A stretch of DNA of 64,000 bases, from positions 24,819,001 to 24,883,000 of the forward strand of contig NC_092580.1 of assembly GCF_037975245.1 (NCBI RefSeq), written 5' to 3'. Position 1 is the first letter of the stretch. Each line of letters begins with the position of its first letter. The position numbers and the translations under genes were made by a program. The notes beneath the pieces are model-generated. The model saw only the letters and a list, made by a program, of their open reading frames with translations. It had not been told where the DNA came from and made no database searches. This stretch comes from Apostichopus japonicus. Lineage: Eukaryota > Echinodermata > Holothuroidea > Aspidochirotida > Stichopodidae. This document shows, in pieces, positions 27,962-49,670 of the stretch.

Positions 27962-28865
27962 CCGGTATGACTAATTACCATACCGGACCCATTCGGACCA
28001 TATCGTACCATACCGGACCATATCGGACCATACCGGGTATGAATAAGTACCATACCGGACCCATATCGTACCATACCGGACCCAACCGGAGGCAAAATAA
28101 ATGACCATCAGACACCACCGGACTATATATCAAATGCTTATTTTTTATCCTTAAATGAATCCCGAAAACAATGAAGTCTATTTGGAATGAAATAATTCAC
28201 TTGTTTATGAACTTTGAGGTATAGGCATTACAAGAGAGATACTAACAATTTTTGTCCATTCGAAATAGCTTTGAGTTTGACCCACAGAAATTCATTAAAA
28301 GTTCTAAATTAGGATTAGATCTCGTACTGAAATATCGCTGACCTAATAAGGTGATCAAGAGTACAATTTTTATGTAGAAAAAGGGCACATTTTTAACCTG
28401 AGGAAAAGTGGGGGGGGCACGTGTCCCCTGTCCCCCCGGTTCCGCCGCCCTTGCCTCTCACATAATCCTGCAGAAAGGGACCCTGTGGCCTGATGCGTCA
28501 GGACAAAGGAAGGCGGACGTAGATTCCTGGGGGACTTGGATTCCTGTTACACCGGCCCCATTTGGGTAAAATGGCCAGCTGAACCCAGATTTGTTGTCAA
28601 CATCCATCCCAAATTCCAATTTTGAGATGAATGTTGACACATAACCAGCATTTTAATGATAAAATATAATAAATATGACTCCGGTGGTGTCTGATGGTCA
28701 TTTATTTCGCCTCCGGTTCGGTATGGTACGGTATGGTCCGAATGGGTCCGGTATGGTAATTATTCATACTCGATATGGTCCGAATGGGTCCGGTATGGTA
28801 ATTATTCATACCCGATATGGTCCGGTATTGTCCGATTGGGTCCGATATGGTAATTAGTCATACCC
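27962..28865. mobile_element. Foldback DNA element with long repetitive inverted termini
   Basis: The left arm (27962-28125) and right arm (about 28678-28865) are inverted copies. Both are built of tandem CCATACCGGACC / GGTCCGGTATGG units and both contain the CAGACACCACCGG/CCGGTGGTGTCTG segment. The outer ends read GGTATGACTAATTACCATA on both arms. The flanks carry the direct repeat GTCAGAGCC at 27954-27962 and 28866-28874, consistent with an 8-bp target duplication of the hAT type, although the extra base makes the size uncertain. No transposase is present. A second G-rich element lies inside. Confidence 0.8.
28140..28453 (-). mobile_element. hAT-like non-autonomous element, partial, nested
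   Basis: The end CCGCCGCCCTTG at 28442-28453 and the internal stretch near 28270-28300 (GAGTTTGACCCACAGAAATT) match, in inverse orientation, the element at 50127-50772. The opposite terminus is missing. It sits inside the foldback element at 27962-28865. Confidence 0.6.
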
Positions 28866-41265: not shown

Positions 41266-42500
41266 CTGGGACTTGAACTGATGCAATCCAAACCAATCGC
41301 TTACTGAACGATGGAATAACCAATTACACCATTTTGGTTCCCTCTGGAGAAACTTTGTTTCTTATATTTATACTTCCACTCCCTCCAGAGGGTAGAAAAG
41401 TAAAAGGCTCTGTCTGGACATGAACCGCAGACATGATGCTCTGTCTGGGGTTCGAACCGGAGACATGGAGTTTGTCTGTCTCTCCAGTCCAGAGCACTAC
41501 CAACTGCGCCACTAGAACTGTTGAGAATTAATGCTCGTTTCTAATATTTAAACTTCAGAATCCAGAATGGAATCAGTAAAAGAGCAAAAATATAAAATGC
41601 TCTGTCTGGGGTTCGAACCGGAGACATGGAGTTTGTCTGTCTCTCCAGTCCAGAGCACTACCAACTGCGCCACTAGAACTGTTGAGAATTAATGCTCGTT
41701 TCTAATATTTAAACTTCAGAGTCCAGAATGGAATCAGTAAAAGAGCAAAAATATAAAATGCTCTGTCTGGGGTTCGAACCGGAGACATGGAGTTTGTCTG
41801 TCTCTCCAGTCCAGAGCACTACCAACTGCGCCACTAGAACTGTTGAGAATTAATGCTCGTTTCTAACATTTAAACTTCAGAGTCCAGAATGGAATCAGTA
41901 AAAGAGCAAAAATATAAAATGCTCTGTCTGGGGTTCGAACCGGAGACATGGAGTTTGTCTGTCTCTCCAGTCCAGAGCACTACCAACTGCGCCACTAGAA
42001 CTGTTGAGAATTAATGCTCGTTTCTAATATTTAAACTTCAGAGTCCAGAATGGAATCAGTAAAAGAGCAAAAATATAAAATGCTCTGTCTGGGGTTCGAA
42101 CCGGAGACATGGAGTTTGTCTGTCTCTCCAGTCCAGAGCACTACCAACTGCGCCACGAGAACTGTTGAGATTTAATACTTGTTTCTAATATTTATTCTTC
42201 ACAACATTAGAAGGCAAATAAATAGAAAATCAACTGCATCATCTGGTGTTTGAATTCAAGACAAGGAGTATGTCTCATTTTTTTTCAGTTTATTGACAAT
42301 TTCATTGTACAAACAATTAAAAATATGCAAAATTATACAACATAACAACTTCGCCACAGTAACTGTTAATTGAGAAATGATAGGCTTTTCTAATATTTTA
42401 ACTGCAAAATGAGGAAAAGAAATACCAAAACAATACATCCTCTGGGAGTTGAATTCTAGACAGAGAGTTTGTCTTACCTTCTAAGTACATAACACTAACC
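41266..42500 (-). repeat. Tandem array of tRNA-like units, 161-bp period
   Basis: Five nearly identical units start at 41438, 41599, 41760, 41921 and 42082, exactly 161 bp apart. On the minus strand each has an A-box-like TGGCGCAGTTGG, a well-formed D arm (GCGC/GTGC), a weak anticodon arm and the B box GGTTCGAACC. The acceptor ends GTTCT/AGAGC can pair. The T stem is mismatched and the spacing between arms is too long, so the units are tRNA-derived rather than normal tRNA genes. Diverged units flank the array: partial at about 41266-41437, degenerate at 42170-42270 and 42340-42500. The pattern of identical centre and decayed edges fits unequal crossing-over. Confidence 0.9.
41599..41680 (-). 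other. Representative tRNA-like unit of the array
   Basis: A box at about 41667-41678, B box at 41610-41619 (palindromic GGTTCGAACC). The putative anticodon loop reads CTGGAGA with GGA at the anticodon position, but the stem has only three good pairs. A T-run terminator is not evident downstream, so Pol III transcription is uncertain. Confidence 0.5.
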
Positions 42501-47060: not shown

Positions 47061-47948
47061 CATACAGATCCTCTATGTATGAGCACATGGACATATTCTT
47101 TGATCAATTTGAGCAAGAAAAGCAGCTCTGCCACCCCTTTAATAATTAATGAGTTACATGACATTGTTTTATTTTCACTATGAAACATTTTCACAAGTCA
47201 CTGCCAAACCTAGAGTCATGTAGTATTAATCACTGAAAATAATGCCAATTTTAAGACCATTTGAAATATGAAGTTCAATAAAGGTGTACGTGTTGAGTTA
47301 TCCTGTTTACAAGTACAGCATTTTGAACATCTCCCTCCGTTCCATTTTGAAGAAAAAAATAGCATTATTTCTCAACAGTTGCTGTGACGCAGTGGTTAGC
47401 AAGGGCGTAGGAACCGGGGGATGGGCTGGATCTAACTGCGCCAAGGTTCAATACAGGGGAACTTGAAATGCAGCTATTGGTCAAGACAAATTGGTGGGGA
47501 CACGGTATATCATGTCCCCACTACTGAAAAAGTTGATGGGGACGCGTCCCGCTGTCCGCACCAGGATCTGCGCCCATGGTTTAGAGGCTGTTCATCCTGG
47601 AACGCCATTTTCATGCTCACTTATATGATGTGATATCTGCTGTTTGCTTAACAAATTCGAATAATTGAAATGAGACTGAAATAAATAACTTTGATTTGTT
47701 TATTGTGCAATTCCCGACATTCTTTTCATTTCGAAAGACGCAGTTTCAAGTTCAGTACACTGAAGGTTTCGATTCTCTATCTGCCTTCAGTTTAGGTAAG
47801 ATCTTGGGATATTCATCCCTAGATATCGCTGGATATTGCTAGAAATCCATACAGCACAGTGTTCTTGGAATGTCTTGGGATTTTTCGGGCCTGATCTTGG
47901 GAAATTGCAAAATCGGGAGTGGTTACACTCCATTTAGGTCAGTGCACG

Positions 47949-49066
47949 TATGGCAAGCCGTTTTAACATTTACCTCGCAATTCGACTTAAGTCGAATACA
48001 TTTCACTTAAGTGGAATTCAATATCACTTAAGCAGAATACTATTTAACTTACGTGGAATTCTATTTCACTTAAGTGGAATACCATTCCACTTAAGCTTAA
48101 TTGTATTTTACTTAAGCTGAATTCATCAACTTGTCACTGCATCTTACTTAAGCTTAATCTATTTCACTTAAGGGGATTGTATTTCACTTAAGTGGAAATG
48201 CATTTCACTTAAGTGGAATTGTATTCTACTTAAGTGGATACAATTCCACTTAAGTGGAATTTCCTTTCTATTTCACTTAAGTGGAATACAATTCCACTTA
48301 AGTGAAATGTGATTGGATAGTCTATTTCACTTAAGTGGAATGTGATTGGCTAGTCTATTCCACTTAAGTACGTGGAATGTGATTGGCTAGTACATTCAAC
48401 GTCAAACTTTGCCCATGCCTTTGCGCGCCATTATAAACAACTTGCCGCGATACGTGGTGTCGATATGTGCACAATGAATATCGGCTGTCCATCGGGATCC
48501 AGCTAGCACTTAACATCCGTGCAAGGTGAGTACGTACATACCTGACCTGGTACCAGATGAATACCATTTCCAAAATAACATTACCCTAAATTGTATTTAT
48601 ATATAAGCCACATGTCAACACTTCCACTTAAGTGGAATTGTATTCTACTTTGGCAGAATAGAATTCCACTTAAGTGAAATTGACGAACAAAAGATATTAT
48701 TCCACTTAAGTGAAATTGTATTCCACTTAAGTGGAATACAATTCCACTTAGGTGGAAATGCATTCCACTTAAATGGAATTGTATTTCACTTAAGTGAAAT
48801 ACAATTCCACTTAAGTGGAATGCATTTCCACTAAAGTGAAATACAATTCCACTTAAGTGGGAGGCATATCCACTTAAGTGAAATAGAAATGTCCATTTCC
48901 ACTTAAGAGAAATGGAATTCTACTTAAGGGATATTGAATTCCACTTAAGTGGAATACATTTTACTTAAGTGGAATAACATTTCACTTAAGTAGAATGTAT
49001 TCCACTTAAGTGAAATGTATTCGACTTAAGTCTAATTGCGAGGTAAATGTTAAAGGGCTTGCCATA
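47949..49066. mobile_element. Foldback element built of CTTAAG palindromes
   Basis: Outer inverted repeats begin TATGGCAAGCC..TTTAACATT and run about 70 bp through ATTTACCTCGCAATT and GACTTAAGTCGAATAC. The flanks carry TGCACG at 47943-47948 and 49067-49072, a likely 6-bp target duplication. Between the ends, two blocks (about 47990-48375 and 48610-49030) consist of dozens of ATTCCACTTAAGTGGAAT-like palindromes at 20-30-bp spacing. The central 240 bp is unique and holds ATTGG boxes, a TATA-like site and a splice-donor-like sequence. No transposase is seen. The superfamily is not assigned. Confidence 0.85.
48320..48545 (+). promoter_or_regulatory. Promoter-like core inside the CTTAAG element
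   Basis: Three TGATTGG motifs (about 48310, 48346 and 48381; CCAAT on the minus strand), then CATTATAAACAAC near 48429 (TATA-like), then, about 90 bp on, CGTGCAAG followed by GTGAGTACG at 48530, a near-consensus splice donor. Spacing would suit a promoter plus a first exon. This is inference from motifs only. Confidence 0.3.
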
Positions 49067-49503
49067 TGCACGACTTCTAGCATCACTAATACACAGCCCG
49101 ATCACTAGACTCGTTATCTATCGATGAAGTGGTGTGTTGCCGGATTTTGTCAAGGTTTTGGTACTACGGGCGAAGGTTGTTTAAGTTTTGTAACCCATCG
49201 GGAAGTGATAAGAGGGGTGGGGCGTAGGGGTTGTGGGGGGTGGGTGGTGGGGCATTTTCACGCAGATTGGAACAATCTCAAGAAGTGAAAGGTGCATCCG
49301 CCTGCCCCCCCCCCCACGCACTACATGATATTCACAGGAGATGTGCTCAATTCTCCAATCACATGCGGAATTTATTTTTAGATTCATTGTATGAGTTACG
49401 GATCATATAGATCCTGGTCTAATACCGAAACGCATCGTGTTCCCGACGACTCGATCGAGTTCCAGACCAGCCACAGTTGGTTTCATAGCACAATTGTACA
49501 ATT

Positions 49504-49504
<1 letters not shown>

Positions 49505-49567
<63 letters not shown>

Positions 49568-49670
49568 GATATATATATATATATATATATATATTCGATA
49601 TATATATATATATATATATTCGATATATATATTCGATATATATATTCGATATATATATATATATATACAT
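49505..49670. repeat. TA microsatellite with TTCGA interruptions
   Basis: Long alternating TA interrupted five times by TTCGA. It borders the left end of the element at 49671. Confidence 0.95.

Follow-up and report, generated by a model that had tools for sequence, protein, structure and literature searches.

A non-autonomous transposon of Apostichopus japonicus with phased palindrome arrays inside IS3EU-type ends

The element and its palindrome arrays

Examination of a 64,000-bp stretch of the Apostichopus japonicus genome (contig NC_092580.1; hereafter the window) revealed a mobile element of 1118 bp at positions 47949-49066, which begins with TATGGCAAGCC and terminates with GGCTTGCCATA (Table 1). 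Its terminal inverted repeats (TIRs) are near-identical over ~69 bp, with the first two palindromes lying inside them, and the element is bordered on both sides by the target-site duplication (TSD) TGCACG. These boundaries, inverted termini and flanking repeats had been proposed in a sequence-only reading of the window, and all of them proved exact, the TIRs being longer than that reading had stated.

Table 1. Features of the window element and positions of the sister family
Feature	Position	Strand	Remark
Left TSD TGCACG	47943..47948	.	identical to 49067-49072
Left TIR TATGGCAAGCC...	47949..48020	+	includes the first two palindromes
Left palindrome array	47984..48370	.	17 units with CTTAAG centres, spacing mostly 20-21 bp
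GATTGG (inverted CCAAT) ×3, at 48311, 48344, 48381	48311..48386	+	three in 22/27, at least one in 27/27 site representatives
TTATAAA, putative TATA box of a left-hand promoter pointing inward	48431..48437	+	in 24/27 site representatives; putative function
TATATATAAATA, putative TATA box of a right-hand promoter pointing inward	48594..48605	-	exact form in 5/27 copies
Right palindrome array	48625..49032	.	18 units
Right TIR ...GGCTTGCCATA	48996..49066	-	
Right TSD TGCACG	49067..49072	.	
Sister family (L075/L076/L079/L080)	C3:14225777-14244133, C6:9733116-9751790, C12:10474482-10492955		

Under a rule looser than exact CTTAAG, 35 palindrome units were placed in the window copy, in two blocks as described earlier from the letters alone, and 26 of the 34 intervals between them measure 20-21 bp. 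Exact CTTAAG occurs 31 times in the element versus 9 times in the other 62,882 bases of the window, and exact CACTTAAGTG 18 times versus none. The window rate predicts 0.16 occurrences of CTTAAG over a length of 1118 bp (Poisson p ~2×10−59), and a chance origin of this density was rejected on that basis. Treated as a single strand, the left 452 nt fold much more stably than 100 shuffles (z = −14.6); self-folding extends to the entire element, with an energy obtained, at a length above 1000 bases, without a shuffle control. Self-folding, too, had been anticipated by the earlier reading.

Longer copies of the element carry a minus-strand exon (MATANHSHLTLLECDQ...) just inside the right array. 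This exon has 117 matches in the genome, and its peptide was recognised in 18 of 27 copies. The window copy is ~375 bp shorter in the middle (375-379 bp when set against L026, L037 and L044), and it was absent among the listed genome matches to the first exon of the longer copies. It is non-coding, so its transposase would have to come from elsewhere, in trans.

A TATA-like box lies on the minus strand inward of the right array; in copy L024 CATATAAAAAC is found there, followed by the exon ATG. With GATTGG and TTATAAA inward of the left array and this TATA-like box inward of the right one, each array has a transposon end on its outer side and, on its inner side, a putative promoter pointing inward. 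The middle region was also considered as a splice donor (AGGTGAGTA), a reading that was dropped because 1/27 copies has this sequence. Sigma-70 scanning, Rfam and ARAGORN returned nothing relevant.

Elsewhere in the window, positions 27963-28865 hold a second inverted-repeat element of 903 bp. Its duplication is 9 bp long (GTCAGAGCC), its ends read (C/G)GGTATGACTAATTACCATA, and within them lie the short repeats GGTCCG / ACCATACC. At 41436-42201 a 161-bp unit is repeated 4.8 times with 98% matches; we take this unit to be tRNA-like in appearance, and ARAGORN reported no tRNA in the repeat.

Copies, insertion sites and target preference

A search of the genome (671.6 Mb, 35 contigs) with a 34-base end pattern, allowing up to 3 mismatches, retrieved 203 forward and 215 reverse matches (418), versus 0 + 0 for the backward control. 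We examined 47 two-ended copies of 1.1-3.9 kb each, which fall at 27 insertion sites by flank similarity (sites being separated by a rule of 70% identity over 40 bp of either flank). The 6-bp TSD is perfect at 23 of the 27 sites and has one mismatch at the remaining 4. Three loci were dropped, L006 and L045 for having a single recognised end and L017 for a nested LINE and a damaged duplication; the short loci L009-L016 lay outside the copy scan. At L021, L040, L041 and L043, pairings of ends that were alternative or lay further out were excluded, and four of the alternative pairings also had perfect 6-bp duplications. A 21-base end pattern gave no match in the viral contigs searched, and the two-palindrome pattern (see below) none in the prokaryote genomes searched.

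The insertion site of the window copy is common to 21 of the 47 copies. Host sequence around the element (the flanks within window positions 47500-49600) is a dispersed repeat, and the window copy shares with its siblings long matches of ~89-99% identity that span flank and element. When the two flanks were joined, 590 first-look candidates were found in the genome, and all 40 that were scored cross the junction. Each of the 5 empty sites fetched contains a single copy of the target (TGCACG in 4 and TTCACG in 1). Because the site lies in a host repeat, empty copies of which read through it, the simplest reading is that the copies at this site stem from one insertion that was later multiplied together with the repeat. 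Other copies share the boundaries of the window element, with 6-bp duplications at different targets, and empty sites exist; the transposon-type identity proposed by the sequence-only reading, which hinged on such copies, therefore stands.

Near contig ends, copies occur every ~0.17-0.4 Mb (C19 ~31.0-32.4 Mb, C20 0.28-1.24 Mb, C11 0.13-0.37 Mb, C21 0.2-0.37 Mb). The two-ended copies fetched from these clusters (L044, L046, L047, L048, L052) are all at the TGCACG site, which suggests long subtelomeric duplications. Across insertion sites, the 16 representatives of 1.5-1.7 kb have a mean pairwise identity of 97.1% (92.0-99.4%), a value that suggests recent movement of the family.

When the 23 perfect duplications were read in the orientation of the element, G was found at position 2 in 19 and C at position 5 in 22. 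YGNNCR, a motif derived from these same 23 targets, fits 12 of them versus 1.1% of flank 6-mers (p = 3×10−18), and the looser NGNNCN fits 18. The ratio of observed to expected CpG averages 0.94 in the flanks of 22 of the 27 sites (L001, L021a/b and L041a/b left out) versus a mean of 0.51 over 112 tiles (Mann-Whitney p = 1.3×10−7), all of these control tiles coming from the one window, and four other loci having given means of 0.25-0.79; G+C in the same comparison is 0.395 in flanks versus 0.380 in tiles. Insertion sites of the family tend to favour YGNNCR within CpG-rich surroundings.

Relatives with a transposase core and placement of the family

One diverged relative, L067, is 38% identical in the first exon, shares the terminal 28 bases at its single recognised end, and carries a CTTAAG array. 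Inward of this array follow open reading frames (ORFs) that match HTH_7 (E = 1.8×10−4, slightly below the curated cut-off) and the rva_4 integrase core (E = 2.7×10−76); that they form one protein is putative. Among the listed genome matches, no copy was found that joins the first exon of the window's own family to a transposase core. The transposase copies at L067 2023-6832 and at C1:12277292-12278095 are 97% identical and have the same kind of flanking repeat; L067 keeps its array and one end, and no array is present in the C1 copy within the 1 kb fetched at the corresponding position.

A sister family of 18.4-18.7 kb, found at three places (Table 1), has ends TATGGTTGGCC (TATGG) and an rva_4 match (E = 9.4×10−73). 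To our knowledge this is a large size for the IS3EU group. Its TSDs (GCCGTC, ATAGTA, GACGAC) are perfect 6-bp repeats in 3/3 copies, and 0/3 fit YGNNCR. The rva_4 cores of L067 and the sister family are 40% identical, with D21, D61 and E96 common to both (DD34E). An NCBIfam search gave no IS3, IS481 or integrase match, and a PDB sequence search no IS3 or integrase match.

Rust-fungal IS3EU elements are described, in the available part of PMC12730594, as having 6-bp TSDs, TIRs >30 bp and ends TAYGG..CCRTA, and the accessible text of PMC10045372 gives IS3EU TA..TA ends and a TSD of usually 6 bp. The window copy ends in TATGG..CCATA, its TIRs of ~69 bp exceed the length given for the fungal families, and its family makes 6-bp duplications (23/27 perfect, 4/27 with one mismatch) with empty sites present. 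IS3EU transposases are of an integrase-type DDE kind related to IS3/IS481. The window copy itself lacks a transposase; rva_4 is found in L067, which has the same end sequence, and in the sister L075. From IS3EU-type ends, the 6-bp TSD and rva_4 in relatives, we have filed the window element as a non-autonomous member of IS3EU. It resembles IS3EU/GingerRoot in duplication length, terminal bases and TIRs, and probably in having relatives with an integrase-type DDE core; unlike IS3EU as described in the parts of these sources available, the window copy has 17-18 palindromes per end. The sequence-only reading had known no named family for such an order of palindromes and termini. As to ends and duplication, the element does belong with a named superfamily, IS3EU, whereas a literature search found, among the matches listed, no description of such palindrome arrays in IS3EU. 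Elements of this class are known; what appears novel is how far the arrays extend, their phasing and their footprint.

Other classes were compared with the element. Polinton/Maverick elements have AG..CT ends, a 6-bp duplication and a self-encoded polymerase gene. The duplication length fits but the ends are TA..TA, and this class was rejected; the absent polymerase gene says little here because the window copy is non-coding. A Foldback/MuDR type, with 8-10 bp duplications, was rejected by the 6-bp duplication. Dada elements, which in the portion of PMC3706591 available have a 6-7 bp duplication within small RNA genes and no terminal inverted repeats, were rejected by the TIRs and varied targets of the element.

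Conservation and possible roles of the arrays

Across the family, each end opens with a TIR, followed by ~20 palindromes ATTnnACTTAAGTnnAAT at a spacing of ~21 bp, equal to two helical turns; CCAAT and/or TATA motifs come next. The 27 site representatives contain 1078 exact CTTAAG units (25 to 75 each), with 789 of 1051 intervals at 20-21 bp; spacings of 27, 29, 33 and 36 bp, off the two-turn phasing, also occur. Searching for ATT(12)AAT, with the core unconditioned, retrieved 869 occurrences in the representatives, 828 of them with CTTAAG at the dyad; the corresponding counts are 21/21 in L067 versus 0/55 elsewhere in the window. A two-palindrome pattern gave 449 + 446 matches genome-wide and 0 in the control. 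The listed matches lie within ~2 kb of an element end by a by-eye comparison, and with the empty control this led us to reject a free satellite.

In the aligned right arms of L024 and L067, CTTAAG is retained at 21/21 L024 dyads. By distance from the L067 dyad, identity is 44/44 at ±1 and ±2, 43/44 at ±3, 34/44 at ±4, 12/44 at ±5, 18/44 at ±6, 44/44 at ±7 and ±8, 35/44 at ±9 and 23/43 at ±10, in one pair of arms for which unit-to-unit descent is presumed; the CTTAAG values are in part built in, CTTAAG having served both to find the units and to register the alignment, which does not apply to ±7-8. Both arms also contain irregular spacers of 29 and 27 bp in the same order, separated by four steps of 21 bp. 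This pattern of conservation resembles the footprint of a protein on ATTnnACTTAAGTnnAAT.

The copies that share the insertion site of the window element vary in steps, for instance 69 versus 111 bp (two units, 42 bp) or 21 bp; the arrays lengthen and shorten in whole units. Such unit steps, together with the wide range of unit numbers over the 27 sites and the oyster satellite repeats annotated IS3EU in the available part of PMC8268682, would suit a neutral array, in which a subterminal palindrome was expanded by slippage or unequal exchange without any role and the TIRs alone move the element. A neutral array fits poorly with conservation that is non-monotonic between diverged families, the core and ±7-8 being kept and ±5-6 and the spacers being free, and with the recurrence of the irregular spacers in order, and we regard it as unlikely.

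The folding of the left arm and of the entire element raises another explanation, in which function would reside in hairpins or cruciforms, formed either by single palindromes or by the inverted pair as a whole. Long inverted ends built from short internal repeats are also found in Foldback, Galileo and Tm1, according to the accessible descriptions; Tm1 has composite TIRs but duplications of 8-10 bp, and a repeat unit of ~14 bp (PMC3169594, available part). Dyad symmetry in the window's family is in clear excess at ±5 (176/272 versus 136 expected from shuffles), which would favour foldback-like pairing, and marginally so at ±7 (253 versus 250.6). Stem pairing needs symmetric ±4 and ±6, however, where the counts fall below shuffles (204 versus 210 and 104 versus 125, respectively), and in L067 ±5 is symmetric in 9 of 22 distinct units, near the shuffled 8.3. 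Hairpin pairing is therefore disfavoured as the selected property, and these symmetry counts lend limited support to both half-sites changing in coordination; moreover, the conserved positions are identical bases rather than compensating pairs. We consider a foldback-like role quite improbable.

The sequence-only reading had pointed to CACTTAA/TTAAGTG, which presumably resembles the NK2 core, and had proposed a binding platform or decoy for NK2-class proteins. In a broader form, an NK2-class homeodomain protein or another host protein would be bound for expression or sequestered, and the promoter-proximal position of the arrays, with CCAAT and TATA motifs, is in keeping with this. In L067, however, change falls on the NK2-like part of the site: ±5, which makes CACTT/AAGTG, is altered there whereas CTTAAG and ±7-8 stay. 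One NK2-like half is still kept in 9/23 L067 units, and both in none. Of the 22 distinct units, 3 have C at −5 and 6 have G at +5; T..A is the most frequent ±5 pair (9/23 units). The sister family has ACGCGT instead, with four such palindromes inside one end (19/23/19 bp apart), two matches near the other end, and CCAAT motifs adjoining the ACGCGT sites. The NK2 proposal is not supported by these comparisons, and we give a host-factor platform or decoy very little credence.

On balance we think it probable that the window element is a non-autonomous IS3EU transposon whose palindromes serve as dimer sites of an element-encoded protein, for synapsis and promoter tuning. Each palindrome would be bound by a dimer of this DNA-binding protein, most likely the transposase, to which the weak helix-turn-helix ORF of L067 may point, or a companion protein. 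The bound dimers would line up along a single face of the DNA, every ~two helical turns, and help to join both ends for excision. Because the arrays lie directly upstream of the putative inward-facing promoters, we propose that they also tune transposase expression or activity, by feedback on these promoters. The whole-unit differences between sibling copies may illustrate how an array can grow.

Tn7/Mu-type ends, and those of CACTA (En/Spm) elements with TnpA, likewise contain several sites of near 20 bp for the transposase or an accessory protein. These have far fewer sites than the arrays described here, and the likeness considered is one of layout. A precedent is offered by piggyBac and piggyBat, in which repeated subterminal palindromes adjoin the ends and are bound by dimers of the transposase CRD, an inner site restricting piggyBat (PMC11707139, available part); unlike the present family, piggyBat belongs to an unrelated superfamily and has three imperfect palindromes at one end. 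A further step, which we put forward tentatively and rate as unlikely, is that an array of ~20 phased dimers would act as a counting device coupling element dosage and promoter repression to synapsis, with all the sites of an array changing sequence together while the protein itself diverges.

IS3EU is a little-studied superfamily, and this family offers a natural experiment, comprising a large number of near-identical copies, a diverged relative in which each site shows a footprint, and a sister family with the core and another palindrome. The YGNNCR target in a CpG-rich context is a second testable property of the family. End recognition by integrase-type eukaryotic transposases can be tested here, as can the question, raised for piggyBat in the available part of PMC11707139, of whether subterminal arrays aid movement or act as a brake on it.
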